From positions 496,001-560,000 of the forward strand of contig NZ_RKRA01000001.1 of the NCBI RefSeq assembly GCF_003814705.1: a stretch of 64,000 bases of DNA, read 5' to 3'. Shown piece by piece: positions 1,388-18,976 of this stretch. A program made the position numbers and the translations under genes. Position 1 is the first letter of the stretch. Every line of letters begins with the position of its first letter. This DNA comes from Georgenia muralis. GTDB taxonomy: Bacteria > Actinomycetota > Actinomycetes > Actinomycetales > Actinomycetaceae. A model generated the notes under the pieces. The model searched no databases and was not told where the DNA came from. It saw nothing but the letters and a program-made list of their open reading frames with translations.

Positions 1388-2058
1388 CAGATACCGGTCC
1401 GGCCCAGCGAGCGGCGGACATGGTGACGCCGGCAGAATTTGTCGAAATCCTTGGACGTGTATTGCGTGCCGCGGTCGCTGTGAAAGATCACCCCCTTGGG
1501 TGGGCGGCGGTGAGCGATGGCCATCTCCAGGGCATCGGTGACCAGCTCGGTGCGCATGTGGTCCGCGAGGGCCCAGCCGATGACCATGCGCGAGTGCAAG
1601 TCGATGACGGTGGCCAGGTAGGCCCACCCGTCCCAGGTGCGCACGTAGGTGATGTCCCCGCACCAGCGGGTGTTCGGCTCGGCGGCGGTGAAATCCCGGC
1701 CGATCAGGTCCGGGGCGCCCACGGGGTTCTCGCCGGGCACCGTGGTGCGCTTCCAGGCCTTGGGATGGCGGCCCTTCAGGCCCGCGGCGCGCATCAGCCG
1801 CCAGACCCGCTTGTGGGAGACCTTGTGGCCGGCGGCCGCCAGGTGGGCGCGCAGGCGCCGCACCCCCGGCCGGCCGTTGAGGTGGTCGTAGTGGTGCTTG
1901 ATCAACTCGATCAGCTCGGCGTCGGCGACCTCACGGGCCGAGGGGGCCTTGCCGCGCCACTTGTAGTACCCCGAGGTCGACACCCCGAGCTGGTCGCACA
2001 TGAACGACACCGGGAACGCATTCGAGTCAGCCCAGTCCGCGATCGCAGCAAACTTCAC
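1357..2058 (-). pseudogene. IS3 transposase orfB, 3' truncated
   Basis: This is the catalytic half of the IS3 transposase, starting with GTG at 2058 where it overlaps the orfA stop. The first two DDE acidic residues are present (CGDITYV and HSDRGTQY). Homology stops after RRSLGRTGI and the frame runs about ten codons into the ISL3 end before a stop at 1357. The segment with the catalytic Glu (NAVAESF in the intact copy) is gone, so the protein should be inactive. Confidence 0.9.
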
Positions 2059-2413
2059 CGCTGGTCTTTCGCGAACCAGGTCGCCACTTTTTTTGCGAAC
2101 TCCGCCTCCATGCGCAGCCGCTTGTTCTCCTCGCGCAGGCGCTCGAGCTCGGCCCGCTCGTCCTCGTTCAACGGACGCTCGGGCTCTTTCCCCTCGTCCC
2201 GGGCCTTCTTCACCCATTTCCCCAATGTCATCTCATGGACGCCGATGCTCCGCGCCACCTCGGCGATCGCTCGGCCATCATTCAGGACCAAACTAACAGC
2301 GTTGGCCTTGTACTCCGGGGTAAAGCTGCGACGGGTTGATCCCACGGTCGACTCCCTTCGTTCAGGGAACTCGCGTTACGGACCCCACTGTCCACTTAAC
2401 CGGGAACGGTCCA
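1388..2413 (-). mobile_element. IS3-family element, copy 1, 246 bp deleted by the ISL3 insertion
   Basis: The outer terminal repeat is at 2388-2413 (minus strand TGGACCGTTCCCGGTT and onward), identical to the left end of the intact copy at 15915. The match to that copy covers its first 1026 bp and stops abruptly at 1388, where the ISL3 end starts. As far as I can see the two copies encode identical proteins, which implies recent transposition. The element sits inside a tyrosine recombinase gene whose tail continues at 2414. Confidence 0.9.
2055..2345 (-). CDS. IS3-family transposase orfA
   Basis: This 96-residue DNA-binding subunit has an N-terminal helix-turn-helix (SFTPEYKANAVSLVL to HEMTLGKWV) followed by a leucine-rich coiled coil (ELERLREENKRL). 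It is identical to the orfA at 15983. A run of seven A near its end is the -1 frameshift site used by this family to make OrfAB. Its orfB partner is truncated, so this copy can act only if OrfAB is supplied by the other element. Confidence 0.9.
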   Translation of the reverse strand: MGSTRRSFTPEYKANAVSLVLNDGRAIAEVARSIGVHEMTLGKWVKKARDEGKEPERPLNEDERAELERLREENKRLRMEAEFAKKVATWFAKDQR

Positions 2414-2543
2414 CGGCGCCGGTCTGGTCGCGATCAGCCAGGTCCTGCGCCATCAGGACCTGGCCACCACTGCCCTCTACGCCAAAGTCGACCTGGACAC
2501 GCTGCGCCACGTTGCCCAGCCCTGGCCGGGAGCGGCGCGATGA
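2414..2543 (+). pseudogene. tyrosine recombinase C-terminal remnant (first gene of the recombinase trio)
   Basis: Only the last 42 codons remain. They read GAGLVAISQVLRHQDLATTALYAKVD and onward, which is the tyrosine recombinase C-terminal box with the nucleophilic Tyr in TALYAKVD. The upstream part is replaced by the IS3 terminal repeat, so the gene was broken by that insertion. Its stop overlaps the next recombinase start (ATGA), as expected for a co-translated trio. The rest of the gene may lie beyond the left edge, past both IS elements. Confidence 0.82.
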
Positions 2544-3484
2544 GTGCCCTGGAGCAGGACCTGGCCGAGTACCTGCGGCTGCGGCGTTCACTGGGCCACG
2601 AGCTGGCCGAGGCGGGGTGGCTGCTGCCCAGCTTCGTGGCCTACCTCGACGCCCACGGATCACCGACGGTGACCATCGGCGCGGCACTGGCCTGGATCCA
2701 CGAGGCCAGCACCGACTCTCAGAGCACCGTTGCGCCACGGCGGATGACGGCCGTCCGCGGCTTCGCCCGCTACCTGGCCGGCATTCACGCCGACACCGAG
2801 ATTCCGCCGCTCGGGTTGGTGCCGTATCGGCAGCGGTGGCGGCAACCGTTCATCTACTCGGCGGCCGACATCGATGCGGTGATGGTCCGGGCCCGATCCT
2901 CGATCGCCTCGCCGCTACGGGCCGCGACCTACGACACCCTCATCGGGCTGCTCGTAGCAAGTGGCCTGCGGATAGGCGAGGCGATCAAGCTCGACCGCAG
3001 TGATGTCGACTGGACTCACGGCGTGTTGTTGATCCGCGAGTCCAAGTTCGGCAAGACCCGCCTCGTTCCCCTGCACGAGACCAGCATGCGGTCCCTGGCC
3101 GAGTACGCCGCGTTGCGTGACGACGTCCAACCCCGCCCGGAGGACGGCAGCTTCTTCGTGTCTCTGACTCGTCACCGGCTGTGCTACGCCGTCGTGTCGC
3201 AGACCTTCCGGCAGTTGGTCGACACCGCCGGCGTCGGAGCCGCCGCCCCCGCCGCACCGAGGCTTCACGACCTGCGCCACACCTTCGCGGTCCGCACCCT
3301 GCTCGGCTGGTACCAAGCTGGTGAGGACGTGCAGGCGAAGATTCCCTCGCTGTCGACCTACCTCGGGCATCGCGAGCCGTCCTCCACCTACTGGTATCTC
3401 TCCGCCGCGCCCGAACTGCTCGCCCTGGCCGCCGGTCGTCAGCACACCGCCTGGTCGGCGGCTCGACCAGGAGCCCAGCCATGA
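2540..3484 (+). CDS. tyrosine recombinase, second gene of a RIT-like trio
   Basis: This is a site-specific recombinase of 314 residues with a SAM-like N-terminal DNA-binding region and a catalytic C-terminal domain. The visible catalytic signatures are SGLRIGEA (first Arg), a beta-strand Lys region (ESKFGKTRLVPL), HDLRHTFAVRTL (His and second Arg) and the C-terminal YLGHREPSSTYWYLS with the candidate Tyr. It overlaps the preceding remnant and the following recombinase by ATGA junctions. Three consecutive overlapping tyrosine recombinases define recombinase-in-trio (RIT) elements. The start at 2540 is chosen because of the overlap; an in-frame extension upstream would run through the IS3 end. 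Confidence 0.88.
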   Translation: MSALEQDLAEYLRLRRSLGHELAEAGWLLPSFVAYLDAHGSPTVTIGAALAWIHEASTDSQSTVAPRRMTAVRGFARYLAGIHADTEIPPLGLVPYRQRWRQPFIYSAADIDAVMVRARSSIASPLRAATYDTLIGLLVASGLRIGEAIKLDRSDVDWTHGVLLIRESKFGKTRLVPLHETSMRSLAEYAALRDDVQPRPEDGSFFVSLTRHRLCYAVVSQTFRQLVDTAGVGAAAPAAPRLHDLRHTFAVRTLLGWYQAGEDVQAKIPSLSTYLGHREPSSTYWYLSAAPELLALAAGRQHTAWSAARPGAQP

Positions 3485-4470
3485 CCCTGATCGCGCCAAC
3501 CCTGCAGGCGTTCTTCTCCGACCGCCTCACCCAGCAGCGACAGGCCAGCCCCCGCACCATCGCGGCGTACCGAGACACCCTGCGGCTGCTGCTCGGATTC
3601 GTACACACCAAGACCGGCAAGATGCCCGCCCAGCTCGACTGGGACGACCTGGACGCCGCGACGATCTCCGCGTTCCTCAATCACCTGGAAAACGAGCGTC
3701 GCAACAGCATCCGCACCCGCAACGTCCGGCTGACCGCGATCCGGTCACTGTTCTCCTACGCCGCCCTGCGCCACCCCGAGCACGCTCTCCTCATCCAGCG
3801 CGTCCTGGCCATCCCACCGAAACGGTTCGACAAACGGGTCATCACCTTCCTGACCCCGCTCGAGGTCGACGCCCTCGTCGCAGCCCCGGACCAGTCCCGG
3901 TGGGAAGGACGACGAGACCGGGCCCTGCTGATGCTGGCCGTCCAGACTGGCCTTCGGGTATCCGAGCTCACCGGGTTGAACTGCCGCGACGTCACCCTCG
4001 GCACCGGCGCGAACATCCGCTGCGAAGGCAAAGGCCGCAAGCAACGCGCAGTCCCGCTCACCGCCCCAGTCACGGCACTGCTTCGAGCCTGGATGGCCGA
4101 GCGAGCCGGACTTCCCCACGACCCACTATTCCCTACCCGCACCGGGCGGCGCCTCAGCCGCGACGCCGTCGCGCTTCGGGTCAGCACCCACGCCGCCACC
4201 GCAGCCCGGGACTGCCCCACGCTGCTGGGCAAGCGAGTCCACCCCCACGTCCTCCGCCACAGCTGCGCGATGTCGCTCCTACAAGCCGGCGTCGACACCT
4301 CGGTGATCGCTCTCTGGCTCGGCCACGCCGGCGTCCGCTCTACTGACGCCTACATCCACGCCGACATCACGATCAAGGAGAAAGCACTCGCCCTCACCAC
4401 ACCCGCCTCCGCGAAGCCAGGACGCTACCGCCCCACAGACAAGGTCCTCGCCTTCCTCGAGAGCCTGTAA
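3481..4470 (+). CDS. tyrosine recombinase, third gene of a RIT-like trio
   Basis: This 329-residue integrase has an N-terminal core-binding domain (TLQAFFSDRL to ENERRNSIRTRN) and a catalytic domain with TGLRVSELTGL, a GKGRKQRAVPL strand, HPHVLRHSCAMSLLQAG and LGHAGVRSTDAYIHAD. All R-K-H-R-H-Y positions therefore appear to be present. Residues look XerC-like, but the tandem setting fits a mobile trio rather than a chromosome dimer resolvase. It starts inside the stop of the second gene. Downstream, within 125 bp of its stop, lies a 26-bp palindrome that may be its target. Confidence 0.88.
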   Translation: MTLIAPTLQAFFSDRLTQQRQASPRTIAAYRDTLRLLLGFVHTKTGKMPAQLDWDDLDAATISAFLNHLENERRNSIRTRNVRLTAIRSLFSYAALRHPEHALLIQRVLAIPPKRFDKRVITFLTPLEVDALVAAPDQSRWEGRRDRALLMLAVQTGLRVSELTGLNCRDVTLGTGANIRCEGKGRKQRAVPLTAPVTALLRAWMAERAGLPHDPLFPTRTGRRLSRDAVALRVSTHAATAARDCPTLLGKRVHPHVLRHSCAMSLLQAGVDTSVIALWLGHAGVRSTDAYIHADITIKEKALALTTPASAKPGRYRPTDKVLAFLESL

Positions 4471-4881: not shown

Positions 4882-5075
4882 CCAGCACGAACCGGTGGCC
4901 TCGATTTCGACCGTCGGATCGGCCTCACATTCGAGCGTTGCCGACAGGAGGTCCGCAAGCGCTTCGCCACGTAGCTCCGGCCCGATCGCATGGCATGGCT
5001 GGGTGTACGGATCTGCCGCCGTCCGAGCGCGTCGCACCACGCGCACCGCCCCTCTCGCTTCGCCCCCGTGGGACG

Positions 5076-5651
5076 ATGTGCAACATGCTGAACCGCTTCG
5101 CGCTGGTCCCGGGGAGCGCACTCAACGGCGCGGCGTACTACTGGGAGCCGTCAGTCGACGGACACCTGCTTCGTTCCCTCTTGAAGCTTACGGTCGACGA
5201 GGCATCCCTCGACACAGCAGGGCTCGGACCAGTCGGCGAGAACGTTTCTGTCCTCGTTCACAGTTGGCCTGTCGGCATGACGCCCGATGCGCTCGTACTC
5301 CTGGGCGATCGCCCGTCTGAGTTGCCTGACGGACGTGCCGCCATTTATGTGTGCGCCCAGTGCGGTGATATTGGATGCGGCGCCATTTCGGCGGTGATCG
5401 AGCGGACCGCCACGACGGTTGTGTGGCGAGACTTCCGATGGGACGACGGCCTCCAGTACGAGGAACACGACAACACCGCCATCACCGGCGGGCCCTTCGT
5501 GTTCGATCCCGAGGAGTACGACGCTGAACTGCGTCGATTCATCGAAACCTTTACATCCGTGCGCAATTCTTTGCCTTTCGGAGTCATCACCCGAACGGCG
5601 GATACCCCAAGCCACCGCCGGACTCGTCGGTGGCCGTGGTCTAGCCAATAG
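5076..5651 (+). CDS. hypothetical protein with CxxC-x4-C motif
   Basis: This protein has about 191 residues if it begins at ATG 5076; ATG 5085 is equally possible. It is not secreted and has no membrane segment. A central segment reads YVCAQCGDIGCGAIS, a likely zinc or disulfide knuckle, followed by a beta-rich part (TTVVWRDFRWDD) and GPFVFDPEEYDAELRRF near the end. I recall a broad family of unnamed bacterial proteins with this YVC-x2-CGD-x-GCG pattern but no established function. It stands alone between the istB remnant and the SIR2 gene. Confidence 0.7.
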   Translation: MCNMLNRFALVPGSALNGAAYYWEPSVDGHLLRSLLKLTVDEASLDTAGLGPVGENVSVLVHSWPVGMTPDALVLLGDRPSELPDGRAAIYVCAQCGDIGCGAISAVIERTATTVVWRDFRWDDGLQYEEHDNTAITGGPFVFDPEEYDAELRRFIETFTSVRNSLPFGVITRTADTPSHRRTRRWPWSSQ

Positions 5652-6463
5652 AGGCGTAGTGCTCCACTGCTATACGGCGAGCACGTCCCGACATGCCGCC
5701 GTCCGCGCGGTCGTGCCGATCGGCGCGGCTTAGGGACGCGCCGGCGAACCGGCGCGTCCCCCGGACTCGGCCCGGCTCGAACGGACTGCCACCCTCTCCG
5801 TGCTGCTGGGTCCGGTCATCCGGAGCCATCGGACCTTGGGCGAGGACGAGGGAGAGGGTATGGGGGATCGTCCACCCATGCCGCGTATGGTGCGCGCCTA
5901 TCCCGCGGAGAGGTCCTAATCCGAGATGGAGGCGGCGCGCCGGCAAGGCAGAGCGGGCTTACCAATCGTGGGTCTTCTTGCTGGTAACGTGCCATGCGCC
6001 GGGGTGGTCAGAAAAGCACGGATGGATGGACCTGACTGCACGACCTGACAATCGAAGGTAGAGCAGGGCTCGTCGCGCGAGCCAGCGGTTTGCGTAAGGG
6101 ACCTTGGTGCACATGGCGCCTCCAACGAAGATGACCGGTTGGAGTGGCGCCTCGCTCATCGACGAACGACACAACGGCGGTGTGCTTCATGCACCCGGCT
6201 CACCCGCATTCTAAGGTCCACAGAGCCGGAGGGACGGGGCAAGGCTAGCAGCGAGCGGCGCGGCTCCGCAGCCCGCCGCGGTCGTGCCGATTAGCTGCCG
6301 CAGATAGCGGCGCTGCGGCATCCGCATCTGCCGCTGCCAGTACGGCATGGCGTGCCCCTTCACGCCGCTGGGACTGCATCGCCCGAGTTCGCTAGGGCCC
6401 AAGCACAGTCTTCGAGTCGTCGCTCCCCGACGATTGTCAGGTAGCCGCAGTACGGTCCTGCAC
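5652..6463. other. 812-bp stretch with no convincing gene
   Basis: Open frames here are short, overlap each other on both strands and resemble no family I know. The stretch holds the perfect hairpin at 5733-5760 and otherwise no repeats or RNA gene that I can recognise. It probably contains the promoter of the SIR2 gene and decayed island DNA. Confidence 0.5.
5733..5760 (+). terminator. perfect 12-bp stem hairpin
   Basis: GGGACGCGCCGG, loop cgaa, then CCGGCGCGTCCC. It lies 80 bp downstream of the CxxC protein gene. There is no T-tract, which is common for actinobacterial hairpin terminators, so its role as a terminator is inferred from position. Confidence 0.5.
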
Positions 6464-9400
6464 ATGTGGATCCGACAAGTCGAGGTGCCCGACGAGCTCG
6501 TCGGGGCCGCCCGCGACGGACGACTGGTGATCTTCGTAGGCGCCGGCGCATCCCGCGACGCGCCCTCCTCCCTGCCCGACTTCAAGCAGCTGGTCACCGA
6601 CATCGGCACACAGGTGAGCTCGGTTCCAACCGAGCTGCAGCTGAAACGGCCGGACGTGTTCCTTGGCGACCTCGCCGACATGGGGGTCAACGTCCACGCG
6701 CTCGTCGCCAAGGCCATCGACCCACCGGGAAGCGCGCCCAACCGACTTCACCACGCCATCATGTCGCTGGCCGCCGTCCACCCGCCGCTGCGCGTCGTGA
6801 CCACCAACTATGACCAGCATCTCGAGATCGCCGGCAGAATCGACCACTCGGACGTGGAGGTTTTCCGTGCCCCTGCCCTGCCGATAGGAGATGACTTCAC
6901 CGGCGTCATCCACCTGCACGGCTCACTTGGACAGCATCCTCGTCACCTGGTGGTCACCGACGCTGACTTCGGCCACGCCTACCTACGCGAGGCGTGGGCC
7001 GCACGCTTCCTGGAGCGCATGTTTTCCGTTTACACCGTCCTGTTCATCGGTTACAGCCACGGTGACGTCGTTATGCAGTACCTGGCCCGCTCTCTTGGAC
7101 GAGAAGGACGCCGCTACGTTCTGACCGACGACGCTGGCAGCGGCGCCTGGGCCCGGCTGGGACTCACGGCGATTAGTTACCCCGTGGTCGAGAAGTCACA
7201 CGTCGCACTCGCCGACGCCCTCGAGCGTTGGGCAGAACTCACAGCCTGGGGCCGACTCGATCACCGTCGTCGCATTGCCGCACTGGTCGAGCAGGAGCCA
7301 CCCAGCATTCCCGAGGAGATCTCTTACCTCGAACGAGCCCTCGCCCACCCAGACCACGTACGCTTCTTCACTGAAAGCGCCACGACCGCCGCCTGGCTCC
7401 AGTGGGCGGCAACCCGTCCCGAGTTCACCCTGCTCTTCACCCCACCCCCGACCGGTGACTCCGTCGCTGAGGCCCTGTCCCGGACCCTGACCCGGTGGTT
7501 CATCGACAACTTCGCGTGCGTCGCAGAGCACTCGCCGGCCGCCCTGCGACTGGTGCGCGACCGTCCATGGACGGTCCAGACCTGGGAAGCGCTGGTGCAC
7601 CGGCTCTTCGCCCAGAAGGAACCGATCGAGGACTGGCAAGTGCCCTGGCTTGTCATTGCTCTCCACCGTGCACCTGAAGGTCGACACCACCTCCTCGACA
7701 TGATGCTGGCCGAGGACAGATGGCGGGCGCGCCCAGCCCTAGCGTTCACGCTGCTGGCACACCGCACCAACCCGATCCCCCGAGCCGGTCTCGACCTCGA
7801 CTCGACCGACGGCGCCCCTCGGTTTGAGGTCACCCTCACGGGTGAGGAGTACTGGCTCACCGAGGCATGGAAGAACGTGTTCACCCCGATGCTGACCGAC
7901 CACGCATCGGACCTGCTTGACCTCGGGGTTCGCCAGATCCGAGCGACGTACCGGCTCGCGAATCTTCTGCAGCCGGGATTTGATCCCATCGGGTTCGGAC
8001 GCTCCGCCATCGAACCGCACCCTCAAGACGAGTTCCGCGACCCACACGACATGCTGATCGACGCGGTCCGCGACAGCCTCGAGCACCTCTTGCACGCCGA
8101 GCCTCAGCACGCCGCCCGGCAGATCGACCTCCTCACGTCCGGCCCTGAGGCGGTGCTCCGACGACTTGCTGTGCACGGCTGGCGACTTCGGACCGACGCC
8201 ACGGCCGACGCCAAGGTCAGATGGGTACTCGACCAAGACTTGGTGTACGACCTCGACCTCCAGCACGAGGTGTACCTGCTGCTCCAGGACGCCCTGCCAT
8301 CCACCGAGCCAGGCACCCGCGAACAGTTGCTCACAACCGCCGACCTAGGGCCCTCACCCGAGGCGGGGGCCACCGACTCCCCGTACCGCCGCTACAACCT
8401 TCTTGCCTGGTTGCACCAGACCTTGCCGACCGACCCACGCATCACCGCGGCGTTCAATGCCGTCCAGAGGGCCCATTCCGACTACCAAACCCGCGAGCAC
8501 CCCGACCTCAACATGTATATGACTTCCGGGTTCGTCGAAGACGCCGAACCGTTCTCCCCCGACGAACTCCATAGCTCCATCACGGACGACCCCGCCGCCG
8601 CCCTGGCACGACTCCGCGAGTTCGCCACGGCCGACGAGTTACGACTGACCGGCCCCACGTGGACCGGCGCCCTCGCGGCAATGCGAGGTTGTGTGGCGCG
8701 ACACCCGCTTGACGGTATCCGCGTCGCCGGGCACCTCCTAATCGATGATGACGAGCTCCGTGGCGCCCTGATCCGTGGCTGGAGCGCCGCACAGCTCGCG
8801 GACGCCGACCAAGGCCTACCCGACCAGGTGATCTCTCTTATCGGCACGTGGGACCTCGGATCGATCAGAAGCCAAGCGGCAACCCTCCTGGCCAACGGTG
8901 GCCAGGCCGACCACCCGACCCGATGGCACGACCTCGCAAGCGCCCGCGACCTTGCTCGTAGGCTGTGGCCCCAAGACGAGGTGACCGGGAACGTGGTTAG
9001 CGACAGCGACACGTACCTCGAGGCCATCAATCATCCAGCGGGCGACCTCGCCCAGTTCTGGACCAAAGTTACGGCCGCGGAGTGGAGCCGCCAAGGTGAC
9101 AGGTGGGCCGGCTTGATGCCCCTCATCGAGACCGAACTCGACCGCATGATCGACCAGCCCGGACGCAATGGCCTCCTGGCACGCTGCGTCCTTATCGCCA
9201 GTCTCCGCTTCTACCACGGCGCAGCCCCCGAATGGGCGCGCGCCCGACTCCTCCCGCTCCTGTCGTGGGCCTCTGACGACAAGAAGCAAGTCGCGGCCAT
9301 GTGGCGAACGTTCCTGATGCACGGTCAGTACGACGACTCCCTCTTGCGCGCTGGCCTCCTCGACTCCTTCCTCACCACCCTCGAGCACGAATCGGATGTC

Positions 9401-9985
9401 AACGACGAGCGCGCCATGGAGATTCTGGGACGGCAGATGGCCGCTATCGCTGTACGGTCCGACGATCCGCCCACCCCATGGTTACCCCAGCTGACCACCA
9501 AGGCGTCGCGAATGGTTCGGCTCGCCTGGACGCGGTCCGTGGGGCGCCAATTGCGGGGCATCGAGGCCAGCGAGGCCCATGCCCAGTGGGAGCGGTGGAT
9601 CGAGCGCTACTGGCGCGGCCGCGTCGAATCCATCCCGCGACCCTTCACCCACGACGAAGCCTCGGCCATCGCAGGGTGGGTCCTCGGTTTGCCCTCGGTA
9701 CGCGCCGAAACCATCGGCTTGGTCGAGCAGGCGCCAGCCGGTCTTGAACGCGACGACCGCATTCTTGGCGCACTGACACATTTGGACCTCCGTCCAGACG
9801 CGTCGCTGTGGGCTCGGTACCTGGCCCATCTGCTTCAAGGGACGCCAGCTGACGAACCGTGGATGATCTGCCACCATCTGGCCGACATAGTTCCCGCCTT
9901 GCACGACGGTGGCTCTAGAGAGGTGGTCTCGCCCGTGATCGAACAGGCATTGCGCCTCGGCTGCTCGGCCGCCCCCGACTGGTAG
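6464..9985 (+). CDS. large SIR2-domain protein, candidate anti-phage NADase effector
   Basis: This protein has 1173 residues. The N-terminal 290 form a SIR2-like Rossmann domain with FVGAGAS (25-30), TTNYD (113-117), HLHGS (150-154, candidate catalytic His152) and FIGYS (194-198). These match the Asn/His pair used for NAD hydrolysis in defence sirtuins such as ThsA and DSR proteins. The remaining 880 residues are soluble, Trp-rich and alpha-helical. The last 170 (WERWIERYWRGRVESIPRPFTHDEA and onward) resemble DUF4020 as I remember it. No AAA+/STAND P-loop is apparent. It is a single-gene locus in a mobile island, which fits a phage-defence cell-suicide protein, but activity is inferred. Start ATG 6464 is chosen because homology-like sequence begins at once after it. 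Confidence 0.82.
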   Translation: MWIRQVEVPDELVGAARDGRLVIFVGAGASRDAPSSLPDFKQLVTDIGTQVSSVPTELQLKRPDVFLGDLADMGVNVHALVAKAIDPPGSAPNRLHHAIMSLAAVHPPLRVVTTNYDQHLEIAGRIDHSDVEVFRAPALPIGDDFTGVIHLHGSLGQHPRHLVVTDADFGHAYLREAWAARFLERMFSVYTVLFIGYSHGDVVMQYLARSLGREGRRYVLTDDAGSGAWARLGLTAISYPVVEKSHVALADALERWAELTAWGRLDHRRRIAALVEQEPPSIPEEISYLERALAHPDHVRFFTESATTAAWLQWAATRPEFTLLFTPPPTGDSVAEALSRTLTRWFIDNFACVAEHSPAALRLVRDRPWTVQTWEALVHRLFAQKEPIEDWQVPWLVIALHRAPEGRHHLLDMMLAEDRWRARPALAFTLLAHRTNPIPRAGLDLDSTDGAPRFEVTLTGEEYWLTEAWKNVFTPMLTDHASDLLDLGVRQIRATYRLANLLQPGFDPIGFGRSAIEPHPQDEFRDPHDMLIDAVRDSLEHLLHAEPQHAARQIDLLTSGPEAVLRRLAVHGWRLRTDATADAKVRWVLDQDLVYDLDLQHEVYLLLQDALPSTEPGTREQLLTTADLGPSPEAGATDSPYRRYNLLAWLHQTLPTDPRITAAFNAVQRAHSDYQTREHPDLNMYMTSGFVEDAEPFSPDELHSSITDDPAAALARLREFATADELRLTGPTWTGALAAMRGCVARHPLDGIRVAGHLLIDDDELRGALIRGWSAAQLADADQGLPDQVISLIGTWDLGSIRSQAATLLANGGQADHPTRWHDLASARDLARRLWPQDEVTGNVVSDSDTYLEAINHPAGDLAQFWTKVTAAEWSRQGDRWAGLMPLIETELDRMIDQPGRNGLLARCVLIASLRFYHGAAPEWARARLLPLLSWASDDKKQVAAMWRTFLMHGQYDDSLLRAGLLDSFLTTLEHESDVNDERAMEILGRQMAAIAVRSDDPPTPWLPQLTTKASRMVRLAWTRSVGRQLRGIEASEAHAQWERWIERYWRGRVESIPRPFTHDEASAIAGWVLGLPSVRAETIGLVEQAPAGLERDDRILGALTHLDLRPDASLWARYLAHLLQGTPADEPWMICHHLADIVPALHDGGSREVVSPVIEQALRLGCSAAPDW

Positions 9986-10248: not shown

Positions 10249-10815
10249 CTATCCCCGGACGATCAATCCAGCCTCACGGAAGTATCGGTCGAAATCATCG
10301 TTGCTGCCGGAGTCGATGAGACGCGCGAGACTCGTTTGCCATTGCGTGGCGCTGTACTCCCACATCGGCGCGACGTTCTGCCGGTCGGCTCGCCAGTCCT
10401 CGGCGTTCACCATCGTGCGTGTGCCAAGCGGTAGCCACGCGCGGAAGCCGTCGACGCCAACCACACGTTCGCGGTCGACCAGAGCACCTCGCCAGAAAAT
10501 GTCAACAAGGACGATACCGATACTCATGTCGGGGAAGGTAGCCGAGTCCCAGATGTCCTCGAGTTGCTTTACCCGGCCCGTGTGACTGCGATCGTCCATT
10601 CCCCACTGAATGGTGAGGTCCACGTCAGGCGTGTAAACGAGCAGATCGGAGTGCTGACGAAAGGTGTCTTCATCGATGTCGGGAGCGTCTGTGAAGTACG
10701 GGCCAGCACCGAGACTGTGCCACACATCGGGCTGCGTCTGGCGATCGTCAGAATCAATGATGAAGCGGCGAATCTCGTTGAGGGTCGTCATCGGCGGCAC
10801 CAACCTTCCATCCAT
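10249..10815 (-). CDS. hypothetical protein, island cargo
   Basis: This gene encodes up to 188 residues. ATG 10815 gives the longest form, and ATG 10791 (MTTLNEIRRF) is a plausible alternative behind a GGAAGG stretch. The protein is acidic and soluble, rich in Asp and Trp (DVDLTIQWGMDD, GIVLVDIFWRGALVDRERVVGVDGFRAWL), with no motif I recognise. It converges on the SIR2 gene with a 263-bp spacer, so it is not in the same operon. Codon third positions look less GC-rich than in the core genes, as for the SIR2 gene. Confidence 0.6.
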   Translation of the reverse strand: MDGRLVPPMTTLNEIRRFIIDSDDRQTQPDVWHSLGAGPYFTDAPDIDEDTFRQHSDLLVYTPDVDLTIQWGMDDRSHTGRVKQLEDIWDSATFPDMSIGIVLVDIFWRGALVDRERVVGVDGFRAWLPLGTRTMVNAEDWRADRQNVAPMWEYSATQWQTSLARLIDSGSNDDFDRYFREAGLIVRG

Positions 10816-11005: not shown

Positions 11006-12179
11006 TCAAGACACGGCGGGGAGGGCGGTCGTAGGCTCGGTTGTGACGGGTCCGGGACGTGACTGATCCGAAGTGCCGGTGTGGGGATGTGAGCCGGCCG
11101 CGCTGGATTGAAGTGACGTTCCCCGGTGTCCTCCCGGGCCCGCCCTCAACGCCGCGAGGTCGTCCAGCATCGTCCGGTACACGATGTCGGACAAGCGTCG
11201 TTTCAGGCAGCGCATCGCCTCCGTCGACGTCTTCCCGTCGGCCTTCTTGCGGTCGTAGTAGTCCCGACCGATGCCGGGATTGCGCAGCTGGACGGTGGCC
11301 ATGATGTGCAGGACCCGGTTGATCTGACGGTTCCCGCCGCGAGAGAGCCGGTGACGCACGTGGTCGCCGGAGGACGCGTCGATCGGCGCGGTCCCGGTCC
11401 AGGACGCGAAATGGGCCCGGTCGGGGAACCGGGTGATGTGCCCGACCTCGACCAGCATCCGCGCCGCACCAGAGGGGCCGATGCCGGTCAGGTCCAGCAG
11501 GCTGGTGCCGGTGGCCCGCGCGAGCTCGATGAGCACCTTGTCCGCGGCCTTCTTGCGCCGGTTGATCCGCTCAGGTCGGCGACGAGCTCGGCGGCGACCC
11601 GCCGGCGGACCTTCCCCGCGGCGTCACGCGGACGCACCTTGGCGAGGATCACCTTGGCCTGGGCCGCGGACAGGAACCGCTTCGCACCGCCCGGGAGGAG
11701 TTCGAGGAGCAGGTGGTGCAGCCGGGCGACCATGCGGGTGTGCTCCTCACCGAGGGAGCGGCGCCGGTCGACCAAGGTCCGCAGCACCGCGAGCTGCTCG
11801 TCGCCGACCACCGGGCGCAGGCCGGCCATCCGGGTGCCGACCAGCGCAACGGAATGGGCGTCGGTGGCGTCGGTCTTGCGGCCCTGCCCGGTCGCGAACA
11901 CCCGCGCCCGCGCCGACAACTTCGGTGGGACGTCGAGACCTCTTGACCGTCGGCCAGCAGCCGCAGAGCGACGTGGCGGCCAATGCCGTTGCACCCCTCG
12001 ATCGCCCAGACGTGGTGCGGCCACTGCGACACGTACTCCAGCAGCGCCTGGTACCCGGCGGTGTCGGTGGCGAACCGGCCCCCGCCCAGCACGGCTTCGT
12101 CCCCGGCCATCACCTCGATCGTCACCGACCTCTTATGCGGGTCCATCCCGATGACCACGCGCTCTGACCGCACCACCAT
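11006..12179 (-). pseudogene. IS110-family transposase with two frameshifts
   Basis: The gene begins at ATG 12179 with GGAGGA about 5 bases upstream. The RuvC-like DEDD domain is recognisable: Asp in GMDPHKRS, Glu in AIEGCNGIG and the Asp pair in TDATDAHSVALV. The C-terminal Tnp20 domain has DLTGIGPSGAARMLVEVG and FASWTGTAPIDASSGDHVRHRLSRGGNRQINRVLH. The frame changes near 11935 (after ADGQEV, resuming at DVPPKLSARAR) and again near 11565 (after VAADLVADL-like sequence, resuming at RINRRKKAADK). Unless these are sequencing errors, the transposase is dead. Confidence 0.85.
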
Positions 12180-12425: not shown

Positions 12426-13004
12426 CTAACGACTCCCCGTCCAAGCTCTCGCGGAATCTGCCATGCGTTGCCGAGCGTCCCGAAGTCGGTCTCTCGGCTC
12501 GCCGACGTGAGTGAGGTTCAGTGGAGGTCGGAGTCGCGAGATGACCCCACGTTCAATCTCACGTAGGTGCGCGCCCTCGGACTTGCTCCAGGTGGCCAAA
12601 GAGAGTTGCTGCGCCATCCAACTGCTCAGCCGATCCTCGCTCGGACCATCCAGGCCGAAGTGGGAGCTACCATCGGGCTTGGTGATGTTGCGCGGGATCG
12701 CCACAAGGGCGAGCTCGTCAACAAGCAGAGCAGCGAGACTACGTCTGACCGTAGATGAGCCGGTCCTCCCAGCGGCAAAGTGAGTGCTCACGTCGCGACC
12801 TATCAGACTGCTTTCTGCCTTGCCGACATAGAGAGGCTGCTCGGCGAAGGCGCGACTTACCCCAAGTTGGTCCCACGCCTCGTCATCGCCGTAAAACGCA
12901 TAGATGCCAGGCGCCGCCGGCACGAGTCGGACCGCGTCCGCATATCGGTGCCGAGTGCCAGCTAACGCCCGGAGCACTGCGAACAGTTCGTCGTCATGCG
13001 TCAT
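12426..13004 (-). CDS. stand-alone GIY-YIG-like nuclease domain protein
   Basis: This protein has 192 residues. After about 30 residues it shows PGIYAFYGDDEAW and then PLYVGKAESSLIGRDVSTHF, the two strands and the downstream Arg of a GIY-YIG fold. Later comes ALVAIPRNI and, near the C-terminus, EIERGVISRLRPPLNL, which could supply the metal-binding Glu and the Asn of the active site. There is no UvrC or homing-endonuclease appendage. ATG 13004 is preferred; an extension to 13151 has no clear ribosome site and low-complexity Arg/Gly sequence. It sits between a dead IS110 and ychF, so it may be island cargo. Function unknown. Confidence 0.75.
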   Translation of the reverse strand: MTHDDELFAVLRALAGTRHRYADAVRLVPAAPGIYAFYGDDEAWDQLGVSRAFAEQPLYVGKAESSLIGRDVSTHFAAGRTGSSTVRRSLAALLVDELALVAIPRNITKPDGSSHFGLDGPSEDRLSSWMAQQLSLATWSKSEGAHLREIERGVISRLRPPLNLTHVGEPRDRLRDARQRMADSARAWTGSR

Positions 13005-13371
13005 GCTCTCAGTCTTACCCCGCGGGCACCTCCAAGAGCGGGATCCCCTCCGCCCCCCCCCGGCAGGCCCGCACCACCTGAACGCGACGAGCATCCGGAC
13101 TTGCCGCGACTGGTGCGTGTTCGCACCTGTGGGACGTCTTCCGCTGCGCATGGCATCGACGCGACTCAGCGGCTGCGGCCGCGGTCAGCACGTCGAAGGG
13201 ATGCGTCACGCGGCCCGCCAGCGTCCGCTCCCAGACGTACCAGCCGAAGGCGCCGGCTCCACAAATCTTGCCTCCAGAGCTCCCCCCTCGAGCCACAAGG
13301 CGAATACTCTTGCGGACTGTGTGCGGACTGGGAGCATCCAGCAGCGCTCTGACCTGCGCAAATGCTCCGAT
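13005..13371. other. 367-bp intergenic stretch, no gene seen
   Basis: It includes a run of nine C at about 13052 and otherwise only overlapping short frames. It marks the change from island to core DNA, because ychF begins at its right side in reverse orientation. Confidence 0.5.
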
Positions 13372-14457
13372 TCACACGTTGAAGCGGAAATCCACCACGT
13401 CGCCGTCGGTCATGACGTAGTCCTTGCCCTCGATGCGCACGCGCCCGTGCGCCTTCGCCTCGGCCATCGACCGGTACTTGACCAGGTCGTCGTAGGAGAC
13501 GATCTCGGCCTTGATGAAGCCGCGCTCGAAGTCGGTGTGGATGACCCCAGCGGCCTGCGGTGCGGTCCAGCCCTTGTGGATGGTCCACGCGCGGGACTCC
13601 TTGGGGCCTGCCGTGAGGTACGTCTGTAGCCCGAGGGTGTGGAAGCCGACGCGCGCGAGCTGGTCCAGCCCCGGCTCGCTCTGACCGGTCTCGGCGAGCA
13701 TCTCGGCAGCCTCGTCCGGCTCGAGCTCGACGAGCTCGGACTCGAACTTGGCGTCGAGGAAGATCGCGTCGGCCGGCGCCACGAGCTCGCGCAGCTCGGC
13801 CTGCATGGCCTCGTCGGCCAGGCCGGCGTCGTCGGTGTTGAAGACGTAGATGAACGGCTTGGACGTCATGAGCTGGAACGTCGCAAGGATCTCCGGGTCC
13901 AGCCCCGCCGCGCCGGCCCCCGCGGACAGCAGCGTGCCCTGCTCCAGCAGCGCCACGGCCCCCTTGGCCGTCTCGAGGACCTGGGCGTCGGTCTTCTTTC
14001 CCCGAACCTCCTTCTCGAGCCGGGGAATCGCCTTCTCCAGCGTCTGCATGTCCGCGAGGATCAGCTCGGTGGAGATGGTCTCGATGTCGTCCTTGGGGTC
14101 GACCCGGCCCTCGACGTGGACGACGTCGGAGTCCTGGAACGCCCTAGTGACCTGGCAGATCGCGTCGGCCTCGCGAATGTTGGCGAGGAACTGGTTGCCC
14201 AGCCCCTCCCCCTCGGACGCACCCTTGACGATGCCGGCGATGTCGACGAACGAGACCGTGGCGGGCACCGTCCGCTCGGACTTGAAGATCTCGGCGAGCT
14301 CGTCCAGTCGCGGGTCCGGCAGCGGGACCACGCCGACGTTCGGCTCGATCGTCGCGAACGGGTAGTTGGCCGCGAGCACGGTCGCCCGGGTCAGGGCGTT
14401 GAACAGGGTCGACTTGCCGACGTTGGGCAGGCCGGCGATTCCGATGGTGAGTGCCAC
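13372..14457 (-). CDS. ychF: redox-regulated ATPase YchF (Obg-like)
   Basis: This is a P-loop ATPase of the Obg family that binds ribosomes. It has 361 residues, the usual length. The start is GTG 14457, directly before TIGIAGLPNVGKST, the Walker A motif at residues 9-16. Further motifs are VSFVDIAGIVKGASEGEGLGNQFL (G3 and switch), YVFNTDD (G4 position) and a C-terminal TGS domain ending in HTDFERGFIKAEIVSYDDL to GKDYVMTDGDVVDFRFNV. It is the first core gene to the right of the island, and an ISKra4 element has inserted about 95 bp upstream of its start, possibly affecting its promoter. Confidence 0.97.
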   Translation of the reverse strand: MALTIGIAGLPNVGKSTLFNALTRATVLAANYPFATIEPNVGVVPLPDPRLDELAEIFKSERTVPATVSFVDIAGIVKGASEGEGLGNQFLANIREADAICQVTRAFQDSDVVHVEGRVDPKDDIETISTELILADMQTLEKAIPRLEKEVRGKKTDAQVLETAKGAVALLEQGTLLSAGAGAAGLDPEILATFQLMTSKPFIYVFNTDDAGLADEAMQAELRELVAPADAIFLDAKFESELVELEPDEAAEMLAETGQSEPGLDQLARVGFHTLGLQTYLTAGPKESRAWTIHKGWTAPQAAGVIHTDFERGFIKAEIVSYDDLVKYRSMAEAKAHGRVRIEGKDYVMTDGDVVDFRFNV

Positions 14458-14603
14458 GTGGGCCGAGTCTACGTTGCGCGCCGACGGCGTCGTGCCCCGC
14501 TGCCGCCCCGTCCAACCCGGGCGCCACACCATCTCGTTGTCGGCGATGTCGGGGGTGTGAGTCGTGGCCGTGTCGTTGAGGGTGTTTGTGCTGGTGGCTC
14601 CAT

Positions 14604-15070: not shown

Positions 15071-15914
15071 GCGTCCTGGCCGAGCGGGTCGGCGAGCTCG
15101 CCGCGGCCGAGGCCCGCCGGCTGGTCCATGGCGCGGCCGGCCTGCTGCACGGCGGGGAGCAGGGCGTGCTGGAGGCGATCGAGCGCGCCGCCCAGCAGGC
15201 CGGGGCACGGATCGGGCTGGCCGCGCTCGCCGGGGTCATCGACTGGGCCGGCCAGGACACCCCGACCCAGGCGCCGTGCCCGGGCCAGGGGCACGGCGCG
15301 CGGTTGGTCACCCGCGGCGCGCCCGGACGGTCCGGACCCTGCTCGGCGCCCTGCAGCTCAGCCGTGGCTACTACCACTGCGCCACCTGCCGGGAGGGGTT
15401 CGCCCCCCTGGACCTCGTCCTGGACGTGGCCGGCACGAGCCTGTCACCGGGCCTGTCCCGGGCTTGCGCGCTGGCCGGGGCCGAGATGCCGTACGAGAAG
15501 TCCAGACAGTTCATCGCCACCGTGACGGGGCCTGGACCTGGCCTCGACCTCGACCCTGGCCCGGACCACCCGGGCCCAGGGACGACGGGCCCGGGTCCTG
15601 ATCGGCGCCGAGCACACCACCGCGGCCAGAGCCACCGCCACGCCCGCGCCCGCACCGGGTGAGGGCCCGGACGTGTGCTACATCGTGCTGGACGGCACCG
15701 GCGCCCCCATGCTGCCCAGCGAGACCACCGGCCGGCCCGGCAAGGATGGCGGCAGAGCCGGGACGCGGGAGGTCAAGATCGGCTGCTTCTTCACCCAGTC
15801 CGGCCGCGACCCGGCCACCGGCGAGCCCGTGCAGGACCCCGACTCCGCGACCTACATCTCCACCTTCGAACCCGCCGCCACCTTCGCCACCCACGCCAAG
15901 GCCGAGTACCACCG
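15068..15914 (+). pseudogene. ISKra4-family transposase, 5' part, two frameshifts
   Basis: Recognisable blocks are LSVLAERVGELAAAEARRLVHGA, then RTVRTLLGALQLSRGYYHCATCREGF with a zinc-type Cys pair, LSPGLSRACALAGAEMPYEKS, and DVCYIVLDGTGAPMLP with the first catalytic Asp. The frame shifts near 15322 and again near 15532, each by one base. The 3' end is cut at codon-internal position 15914 by IS3; joining to 17190 restores AEYHRRGFDHIRQ in frame. The gene was thus a normal transposase before these events, though frameshifts could also be sequence errors. Confidence 0.85.
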
Positions 15915-15982
15915 TGGACCGTTCCCGGTTAAGTGGACAGTGGGGTCCGTAACGCGAGTTCCCTGAACGAAGGGAGTCGACC

Positions 15983-16273
15983 GTGGGATCAACCCGTCGC
16001 AGCTTTACCCCGGAGTACAAGGCCAACGCTGTTAGTTTGGTCCTGAATGATGGCCGAGCGATCGCCGAGGTGGCGCGGAGCATCGGCGTCCATGAGATGA
16101 CATTGGGGAAATGGGTGAAGAAGGCCCGGGACGAGGGGAAAGAGCCCGAGCGTCCGTTGAACGAGGACGAGCGGGCCGAGCTCGAGCGCCTGCGCGAGGA
16201 GAACAAGCGGCTGCGCATGGAGGCGGAGTTCGCAAAAAAAGTGGCGACCTGGTTCGCGAAAGACCAGCGGTGA
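15983..16273 (+). CDS. IS3-family transposase orfA
   Basis: This 96-residue helix-turn-helix protein (SFTPEYKANAV ... EVARSIGVHEMTLGKWV) carries a C-terminal leucine-zipper-like coil. It binds the terminal repeats and, as the N-terminal half of the OrfAB fusion, directs transposition. The start GTG at 15983 follows AGGGAG by seven to eight bases. Its stop overlaps the GTG of orfB (GTGA). Confidence 0.93.
   Translation: MGSTRRSFTPEYKANAVSLVLNDGRAIAEVARSIGVHEMTLGKWVKKARDEGKEPERPLNEDERAELERLREENKRLRMEAEFAKKVATWFAKDQR
16234..16240 (+). promoter_or_regulatory. A7 programmed -1 frameshift site
   Basis: Seven consecutive A lie in the orfA frame GCA-AAA-AAA-GTG. Slipping back one base at this run joins the frame continuing KKSGDLVRERPAVKFAAIADW, which leads straight into orfB. 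This is the standard mechanism of IS3-family OrfAB production. Confidence 0.8.
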
Positions 16274-17154
16274 AGTTTGCTGCGATCGCGGACTGGGCTG
16301 ACTCGAATGCGTTCCCGGTGTCGTTCATGTGCGACCAGCTCGGGGTGTCGACCTCGGGGTACTACAAGTGGCGCGGCAAGGCCCCCTCAGCCCGTGAGGT
16401 CGCCGACGCCGAGCTGATCGAGTTGATCAAGCACCACTACGACCACCTCAACGGCCGGCCGGGGGTGCGGCGCCTGCGCGCCCACCTGGCGGCCGCCGGC
16501 CACAAGGTCTCCCACAAGCGGGTCTGGCGGCTGATGCGCGCCGCGGGCCTGAAGGGCCGCCATCCCAAGGCCTGGAAGCGCACCACGGTGCCCGGCGAGA
16601 ACCCCGTGGGCGCCCCGGACCTGATCGGCCGGGATTTCACCGCCGCCGAGCCGAACACCCGCTGGTGCGGGGACATCACCTACGTGCGCACCTGGGACGG
16701 GTGGGCCTACCTGGCCACCGTCATCGACTTGCACTCGCGCATGGTCATCGGCTGGGCCCTCGCGGACCACATGCGCACCGAGCTGGTCACCGATGCCCTG
16801 GAGATGGCCATCGCTCACCGCCGCCCACCCAAGGGGGTGATCTTTCACAGCGACCGCGGCACGCAATACACGTCCAAGGATTTCGACAAATTCTGCCGGC
16901 GTCACCATGTCCGCCGCTCGCTGGGCCGGACCGGTATCTGCTATGACAATGCCGTCGCGGAATCATTCTTCGCGACCTACAAGAAGGAACTTATCCACAC
17001 CCGCCCCTGGCCGGCCATCACTGACCTGAAGAAGGCCACGTTCACCTGGATCGAGGAGTACTACAACCGCGCCCGACGCCACTCCACCCTCGGGTATTTG
17101 ACACCAGCAGAGTATGAACTAGGATTACGACACATCAACGAACTCGCGGCGTAA
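16270..17154 (+). CDS. IS3-family transposase orfB (DDE integrase domain)
   Basis: This protein has 294 residues if initiated at GTG 16270; it is normally made as OrfAB by frameshifting. It has a HTH_21 region (YYKWRGKAPSAREVADAELIELIKHHY, VRRLRAHLAAAGHKVSHKRVWRLMR) and an rve integrase core with the catalytic triad in WCGDITYV, FHSDRGTQY and NAVAESFFATYKKE. It ends with YYNRARRHSTLGYLTPAEYE, the usual IS3 tail. The copy is intact and could mobilise the truncated copy's remaining end. Confidence 0.95.
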   Translation: MKFAAIADWADSNAFPVSFMCDQLGVSTSGYYKWRGKAPSAREVADAELIELIKHHYDHLNGRPGVRRLRAHLAAAGHKVSHKRVWRLMRAAGLKGRHPKAWKRTTVPGENPVGAPDLIGRDFTAAEPNTRWCGDITYVRTWDGWAYLATVIDLHSRMVIGWALADHMRTELVTDALEMAIAHRRPPKGVIFHSDRGTQYTSKDFDKFCRRHHVRRSLGRTGICYDNAVAESFFATYKKELIHTRPWPAITDLKKATFTWIEEYYNRARRHSTLGYLTPAEYELGLRHINELAA

Positions 17155-17773: not shown

Positions 17774-18976
17774 ATGGAGACGACGACGTGGATCGTGGCG
17801 CTGGTCGCCCTCGCGGCCGGCCTGGTGGCGGGCTTCGCCGTGGCAGCGGTCCGGGCGGCCGCCCGGGTGGGCGAGGCACGCGAGGAGCGCGCCGGTGAGC
17901 TGGCCGACCTGCGTGTGGAGGCAGCGACCGCGCGGGCCCGGGCGGACCGGCTCGCCGAGGAGGTCGAGGGGCTGCAGGAACGGGCCCGCCAGGACCAGGA
18001 CGTCCTGCGCGCGCTGGCGCCGGTCCAGTCGGCGCTGCACCAGGTCGGGGAGCACGTGGCGCTGCTCGAACGTGAGCGCACCGAGCAGTTCACCGTGCTC
18101 ACCGAGCAGCTCCACCACGCGCGCCGGGCCGACGCCGAGCTCCAGCGCACGACGGCGCAGCTGGAGTCGGCGCTGCGGTCGACATCGGCACGAGGACAGT
18201 GGGGTGAGGTCGAGCTCCGCCGGGTGCTGGAGGCCTCAGGGATGATGCGCCACGTCGACTTCGTGGAGCAGCGGGCTCTCGCGCCGAGCGGGGCGGCCCG
18301 CGGGGCCGGGCGGCCCGACGTCGTCGTCCACCTGCCCGGGGAGCGCTACGTGGCGATCGACGCGAAGGTCCCCATGGACGCCTACCTCGAGGCGAGCGCG
18401 ATCGGACCACGGGCCACGGGCGCCGACGCCGAACGCCGCGAACGCCTCCTCGCCGCGCACGCGAAGGCGCTGCGGGCGCACGTCGAGGCCCTCGCGAAGC
18501 GGCGCTACCACGAGCAGCTCCCGGGCTCGCCCGAGCTGGTCGTGCTGTTCGTGCCCTCGGAGGGCCTGCTGGCCGGCGCCCTGGAGGCAGATCCCACGCT
18601 GCTCGAGCACGCCCTGCGGCTCGGGGTGGCGCCGTGCTCGCCCTCGTCCCTCCTCGCCCTGCTGCGCACGACGGCGTCGATCTGGTCCGCGGAGCAGGTG
18701 GCCGACGAGGCCAAGGAGCTCCTCGAGCTCGGCCGGACCCTCTACGAGCGTCTCGGTGTCGTGGCCGGGCACGTCAGCGCGCTGGGCCGCTCGCTGCGGG
18801 CGAGCGTCCAGCACTACAACAAGGTCGTCGCCTCGGTGGAGCAGCGCCTCCTCGTCACGGCCCGCGACTTCGAGTCCCTCGCCGGGGACTCCCTCGCCGT
18901 GGCGCCCGTCTCGTCCGACGACGGTCAGGTGCGCGAGTTCACCGCGCCGGAGCTCGTCACGGAGCGCAGCGCCTAG
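17774..18976 (+). CDS. rmuC: DNA recombination protein RmuC
   Basis: This protein has 400 residues. An N-terminal transmembrane helix (residues 5-27) precedes a long Arg/Glu-rich coiled coil (to about 140). The RmuC nuclease-like domain follows: GQWGEVELRRVLEASGM, RPDVVVHLPGERYVAIDAKVPMDAYLEA and LPGSPELVVLFVPSEGLL, the restriction-endonuclease-like core with conserved Asp and Lys (IDAKVP). ATG 17774 follows GGGAGGGTG. The ISKra4 target duplication lies 24 bp upstream, so the insertion separated this gene from its former promoter region. Confidence 0.95.
   Translation: METTTWIVALVALAAGLVAGFAVAAVRAAARVGEAREERAGELADLRVEAATARARADRLAEEVEGLQERARQDQDVLRALAPVQSALHQVGEHVALLERERTEQFTVLTEQLHHARRADAELQRTTAQLESALRSTSARGQWGEVELRRVLEASGMMRHVDFVEQRALAPSGAARGAGRPDVVVHLPGERYVAIDAKVPMDAYLEASAIGPRATGADAERRERLLAAHAKALRAHVEALAKRRYHEQLPGSPELVVLFVPSEGLLAGALEADPTLLEHALRLGVAPCSPSSLLALLRTTASIWSAEQVADEAKELLELGRTLYERLGVVAGHVSALGRSLRASVQHYNKVVASVEQRLLVTARDFESLAGDSLAVAPVSSDDGQVREFTAPELVTERSA

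Follow-up and report, generated by a model that had tools for sequence, protein, structure and literature searches.

What does the 1,173-codon gene at positions 6464..9985 (+) of a 64,000-nucleotide stretch of the Georgenia muralis genome encode, and how did it come to lie near the end of the core gene ychF? The stretch, called the window below, covers positions 496,001 to 560,000 of contig NZ_RKRA01000001.1, forward strand. We propose that the gene very probably constitutes, by itself, a DSR1-type system against phages; it belongs to a deep and mainly actinobacterial branch and travels in an element inserted at the 3' end of ychF. The DSR1 class is known; what is new is the branch, its vehicle, and a wider use of its C-terminal array. 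The gene, identified as an open reading frame (ORF), with PADLOC and NCBIfam and by comparison of its start with those of relatives, keeps its frame over all 1,173 codons, with no internal stop. An upstream ATG at 6347 is also in the open frame, and we consider 6464 the better start because most full-length relatives of the branch begin at the same position. The G+C content of the gene is 66.0%; most kilobases to the right of position 18000 have 70 to 79%.

Residues 1 to 264 (6464..7255, +) form a SIR2 domain, as seen with Pfam (SIR2_2, E value 1.2e-19), structure and sequence alignments, and a motif search. The motifs TTNYD (residues 113 to 117) and HLHGS (residues 150 to 154) contain Asn115 (codon 6806-6808, +) and His152 (codon 6917-6919, +), which align with the catalytic N133 and H171 of DSR2. 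According to passages of one report, replacement of these two DSR2 residues by Ala decreased the NADase activity (PMC10981675). A preliminary description of the locus had seen a SIR2 core with the catalytic Asn and His, no P-loop, and a protein end recalling DUF4020, and our analysis agrees with all three: two P-loop patterns run over the whole protein gave no match, and Pfam places DUF4020 at residues 1004 to 1093 (9473..9742, +; E value 9.6e-8, 32.4 bits for a cut-off of 22.7). A literature search found nothing on DUF4020.

Is the remainder of the protein also related to DSR1? The PADLOC Dsr1 models match the window protein at 1.2e-54 and the NCBIfam Dsr1 entry (NF041818) at 2.6e-62. Because much of the Dsr1 score comes from SIR2, we compared the two halves separately. 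The C-terminal helical region (about residues 265 to 1173; 7256..9982, +) proved homologous to that of DSR1 by hhalign and PADLOC. Alone, it matches PADLOC Dsr1 at 4.3e-17, and an hhalign profile built from residues 300 to 1173 of eight relatives aligned with the C-terminal halves of Dsr1 from E. coli and N. halophilus (99.7%, E value 5e-26, 682 columns) and with those of ten Dsr1-type proteins from viral contigs (99.6%, E value 1e-24, 616 columns). As controls on three targets, reversing the profile or shuffling its columns (10 shuffles per target) left no value above 0.3%, and pairing unlike halves in five comparisons yielded no more than 2.5%. From these profile comparisons and their controls, we conclude that the window branch and DSR1 have the order of their C-terminal motifs in common. 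The sensing region, which the preliminary description had thought possibly new, is therefore the DSR1 C-terminal region, though highly diverged, and we rejected a new sensor fold for this half. Among 20 aligned proteins, N115, H152, N856, G860, W947, and W1042 are kept in all, and H519, Q521, R567, L568, and E602 in 19, with H519 and Q521 lying in the motif RSAIEPHPQD (residues 513 to 522; 8000..8029, +). The structure-model alignments A4 and A8 were built from the window and related loci, with 14 and 13 rows, respectively. The few C-terminal positions kept across both branches probably mark structural or regulatory parts of the array, as opposed to parts that may face the phage.

The protein thus has both features of DSR1 in the wide sense, namely, a SIR2 domain with the catalytic Asn and His and a DSR1-homologous C-terminal half. 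As in DSR1, SIR2 comes first and a helical region of about 900 residues follows, both halves being collinear and encoded, with the DUF4020 match, by a single gene; the E. coli protein is longer by about 90 residues. DSR2 likewise combines a SIR2 fold, the catalytic Asn and His, and a long helical C-terminal region in a single gene, but the PADLOC Dsr2 match is confined to SIR2 residues 78 to 169. With the whole model as the Foldseek query, the top rows were DSR2 chains, but the TM-score was about 0.2 and the root mean square deviation 27 to 44 Å. We rejected an identity with ThsA of Thoeris, which works with a partner gene: the ThsA match ends at residue 265, and the Pfam scan of the window protein (E values up to 10) found no SLOG family after SIR2. 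Avs5 (SIR2-STAND) shares the SIR2 domain (structure rows 9nc9 and 9jap) and was rejected as well, the window protein having no P-loop pattern and, in the Pfam scan, no NTPase family.

How the gene reached G. muralis was addressed with an unrooted tree of 20 proteins, in which 14 of the 17 inner branches are starred. SIR2-only and partial matches, most viral-contig copies (five were kept), the split copy of G307, and L010 (a second entry for the L001 locus) were left out. The window protein pairs with that of Nocardioides sp. Root240 (71% identity; 100/100), followed by G236 (56%) and by the pair of G204 (50%) and G006 (48%). A 100/100 branch separates the window set (13 rows, one from a viral contig) from the E. 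coli type (7 rows), which places the protein, as judged from this tree, within a deep, mainly actinobacterial branch of DSR1-like proteins. G006 belongs to the genus of the window, and its ychF is 95% identical to that of the window, though its DSR1-like protein is only 48% identical, which shows that the gene did not descend vertically within the genus. The nearest relative is found in Nocardioides and not in the same genus, and therefore the gene has spread horizontally. The ratio of nonsynonymous to synonymous substitution rates (dN/dS) relative to the Nocardioides copy (L001) is 0.165 overall, 0.150 for SIR2, and 0.167 for the remainder, which indicates purifying selection. Since full-length, collinear homologues under purifying selection exist in other orders, the window gene is far from a chance reading frame. 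In G307 (L014/L021), a relative occupies two frames that match residues 5 to 361 and 509 to 1173 and is probably a broken copy.

The distribution is patchy. Matches of any length were found in 7/149 relatives and 13/394 genomes of the class, and a profile search found matches in 28/396 genomes of the phylum; many of these matches are confined to SIR2. Sixty-one of 72,556 plasmid records match, but just one match, from Rhodococcus ruber (31%), spans 80% or more of the query. No close relative of the window protein was found in 50,697 phage records or, with a single-sequence scan, in viral contigs. A profile scan of the viral contigs gave 28 loci, mainly with proteins whose N terminus resembles that of E. 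coli-type Dsr1 (some of these proteins are truncated or repeated), plus one full-length relative nearer to the window branch (L036) and shorter SIR2 proteins.

We then considered the site. The core gene ychF (13372..14532, −; Pfam and genus comparison) is present in 9/9 genomes of the genus, and in all nine its 3' side faces the end of a core stretch with two genes that we take to be nitrilase-like and YidD-like. ychF and this core stretch are separated by about 30 bp in G001, 1.9 kb in G003, 3.9 kb in G004, 12.3 kb in G005, 19.8 kb in G002, 37.4 kb in G007, 44.3 kb in G006, and 46.4 kb in the window's genome; for G008 the distance is about 8.8 kb, the final part of the core query being on a different contig there. 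In the window's genome, the 19-base ychF-tail repeat that forms the right end of the element (13371..13389, +; genome 509371-509389) is identical to bases 471064-471082, and arm-like repeats lie beside both copies, one beside the ychF tail (13308..13328, +) and its near-copy at genome positions 471209-471229. The DSR1-like gene lies between the two ychF-tail repeats and thus within a 38.3-kb stretch. The 14-base core of the repeat occurs twice in the whole genome, at the two element ends. Repeat pairs were also found in G002 (12.6 kb), G006 (40.8 kb, with an extra 1.0 kb between the right copy and ychF), G007 (16.3 kb), and G008 (5.6 kb), and single copies in G003, G004, and G005. Read from these sequences, the 3' end of ychF is an insertion point in the genus, with stacked insertions and arm-like repeats in the window's genome (genome 463013-509389) and a near-empty site in G001. 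A literature search did not find the 3' end of ychF as a known insertion site in Actinomycetota. In pneumococcus, one paper reportedly concerns elements upstream of ychF. Passages of two other papers also place pneumococcal elements on this other, upstream side of the gene (PMC10383233, PMC6375853).

What else does this site carry? A tyrosine integrase is 88 to 91% identical in G002, G006, and G007, and 283 residues of it are present in G005; none was found within the stretches of G003, G004, G008, and G038. The G006 element, in the order integrase, DSR1-like gene, repeat, also encodes a relaxase. In G007, the slot between the integrase and the ychF tail (L140:3310-6863) holds a subtilase matching IetS (5.7e-32) and an AAA ATPase matching IetA (1.5e-76). 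The window gene thus resembles IetAS and other mobile-island cargo in that an IetAS-like pair occupies the same ychF-tail slot in a congener, the IetAS proteins being unrelated to the DSR1-like protein. Four slot ORFs from G002 and G005 matched no Pfam family and gave one weak PADLOC row (0.0077); among those from G008 and G004, some have matches to AAA, HTH, or metabolic families, which shows that the slot also takes cargo other than defense genes. In G038, from another genus of the same family, the DSR1-like gene begins 85 bp past the ychF stop, and about 125 bp past the stop of the gene lies a ychF-tail copy reading VVEFKFNV plus a stop, for which the BLAST E value is just 0.021. A DSR1-like gene is therefore found at ychF in three genomes of the family (the window's, G006, and G038); a fourth relative in the family, that of G031 (L032), is not at ychF. 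Among 12 neighborhoods of relatives, mostly of about 8 kb per side, ychF is present in two (L026 and L030). The ychF-tail site offers a simple place to seek more defense cargo, given the IetAS-like pair in one congener and the slots without family matches. The ychF island of G006 further encodes (L144:6552-9026) one protein with a TIR domain, a weak AAA/NB-ARC match, and TPR repeats.

Ten ORFs were chosen for scanning among the neighbors of relatives. In L031, the DSR1-like gene is flanked by an Eco57I-type methylase gene (PglX-like) and a PglZ gene, a BREX-like set; in L032, it adjoins a helicase gene with NOV_C, with a DUF1156 gene next. A KAP NTPase gene comes after it in L030, a DEAD-box gene is nearby in L028, the next gene of the Nocardioides copy (L001) has a weak NERD match, and a TrwC relaxase gene lies upstream in L026. 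An annotated E. coli Dsr1, on a plasmid, has restriction genes nearby. The preliminary description had called the window gene a candidate anti-phage NADase in a mobile island; the DSR1 homology, the catalytic residues, the defense-like neighbors of relatives, and the repeat-bounded stretch speak for this, with the enzymatic activity being a prediction.

How might such a system work? By analogy with DSR1 and DSR2, we infer that the long C-terminal helical array would keep the N-terminal SIR2 domain inactive and would recognize some part of the phage, presumably a protein, much as the tail tube is recognized by the DSR2 array. Binding would open the SIR2 pocket, which would hydrolyze NAD+ via Asn115 and His152, and infection would stop. 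Passages of several reports describe DSR1 and DSR2 as acting on phages (PMC10952713, PMC10973363, PMC10981675) and give further background on DSR1 (PMC12931631, PMC10121019); those on DSR1 name no trigger. In passages of one of them, DSR1 is reported to halt phage replication without cell death, unlike DSR2 (PMC10952713), so the fate of the cell in the window's branch may follow either protein.

The C-terminal array is not tied to SIR2. In our survey of array partners, which covered samples of Actinomycetota, the phylum profile search also matched proteins without a fused SIR2. Six of these (L093-L098), of about 1,600 residues, can be aligned with one another, and the three that were scanned have a DUF255 thioredoxin-like domain (Pfam) at the N terminus, joined to a DSR1-type C-terminal array. 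A second set consists of four shorter proteins (L099, L101, L035, and L100), three of which were scanned and gave no Pfam match. By hhalign, the window branch aligns with the second set at 99.6% (E value 1e-24, 805 columns) and with the DUF255 set at 98.9% (E value 1.5e-17, 626 columns); the E. coli-type branch aligns more weakly with the second and DUF255 sets, at 95.9 and 74.8%, respectively, for a profile of ten rows and at 32.0 and 12.7% for one of two rows. For L101 (6993-11699), a DUF3644 gene, which we take to be HEPN-type, lies next upstream of the array gene, beside an Eco57I-type methylase gene. For L100 (3819-7729; G822), an upstream SIR2_2 frame overlaps the start of the array protein by about 60 bases, and the two frames may represent a system in two parts or a single gene that a frameshift has disrupted. 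The PADLOC Dsr1 model PDLC04166 matches 6/6 SIR2-less proteins scanned, so naming by this model alone can mislead. In viral contigs, 45 pattern matches to SIR2-less relatives yielded none that was confirmed. We tentatively suggest, as a possibility that we do not favor, that the DSR1 C-terminal array serves as a recognition module that can be moved between partners (in Actinomycetota, SIR2 or DUF255 in fused form, a neighboring DUF3644 gene, and perhaps a neighboring SIR2 gene), and that the DSR1-like version of the window family travels in a swappable defense slot of ychF-tail elements, in one genome as a 3.8-kb unit with little else. Relatives without a fused SIR2 would allow the recognition part to be studied apart from the NADase.

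Several observations weigh against a DSR1-type anti-phage system carried by a ychF element. The NCBIfam match has 211 bits for an equivalog cut-off of 1400, and the protein is about 21% identical to an annotated E. coli Dsr1, across the 100/100 branch. When the profile was shuffled in blocks of 40 columns, which retains local motifs, the maxima for the three targets (10 shuffles each) were still 85.2, 91.6, and 92.8%, with scores of 60 to 68 versus 151 to 213 for the real profile. Foldseek with the C-terminal model alone gave eukaryotic HEAT-repeat proteins at low TM-scores, a general HEAT-like match, and no DSR2 among the 50 rows listed. PADLOC matched no family in the window ORFs 4938-5651, 10249-10815, and 12426-13151, and the 50.2 kb searched in the window's genome held no close copy of the integrase, only matches of 26 to 29%. 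This last result, together with the IS copies and broken genes nearby, would fit a relic, intact by sequence yet unexpressed and stranded in an integrase-less element among insertion sequences (IS). We think this improbable given the intact frame of 1,173 codons and the low dN/dS, though the latter is averaged since the split from the Nocardioides copy and says little on the recent past.

Other roles for a SIR2-array protein have to be weighed as well. Profile A7, which includes three SIR2-less rows, finds DUF255-set proteins in 6/8 genomes of one order, and 4/15 genome pairs have long flank matches (341 to 775 residues, 75 to 82% identity), because of which the DUF255 fusions look in part vertically inherited. 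A C-terminal match to a housekeeping family outside immunity would have counted against the preliminary description, and our results bear on this in part: the module also occurs in this fusion, which looks vertically inherited in part of one order and has no evident immunity link. The DUF255 fusion may have a regulatory or housekeeping function outside immunity, but such a role seems very improbable for the window version, which is patchy, horizontally spread, and on a mobile element. The protein might instead be a guard whose main targets are plasmids or competing mobile elements rather than phages; the array would sense an element protein and the NADase would kill or stall the recipient, to the benefit of the carrier element. 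The gene is indeed cargo between the integrase and the repeat in the relaxase-encoding element of G006, and three genomes of the family carry it at this site. Against such a guard stand the action of DSR1 and DSR2 on phages, as described in the passages cited above, and the relatives in BREX-like sets, and we regard it as unlikely. An anti-phage system of the DSR1 kind accounts best, in our opinion, for the locus.

The surroundings of the gene in the window are rich in mobile debris, as the preliminary description had stated. Pfam identified tyrosine recombinase genes at 2336..3484 (+) and 3481..4470 (+), and a third lies just left of the window; presumably these are of the RIT type. An IS110-type transposase fragment (11006..11536, −) lies in a longer frame that holds stops. 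The IS21 debris named in that description was not seen among the 10 window ORFs scanned with Pfam, which are not all of the ORFs. Pfam and sequence matching revealed an IS3-family copy at 1388..2416 (−), 99.9% identical to 15912-16940, the two copies being in opposite orientation. Pfam gave no match for ORF 4938-5651, and a 188-aa ORF (10249..10815, −) had no Pfam or PADLOC match. A GIY_YIG_2 gene (12426..13151, −; Pfam) lies between the DSR1-like gene and ychF. The scanned neighbors within the 38-kb stretch included no clear defense gene. Elsewhere in this stretch (L142:14200-17896), we found a row of a metallo-beta-lactamase-fold gene, a small response-regulator-like gene with no Pfam match, and a gene for a protein with two HATPase domains; PADLOC gave weak rows for the first and the last, and the row is possibly another defense set.

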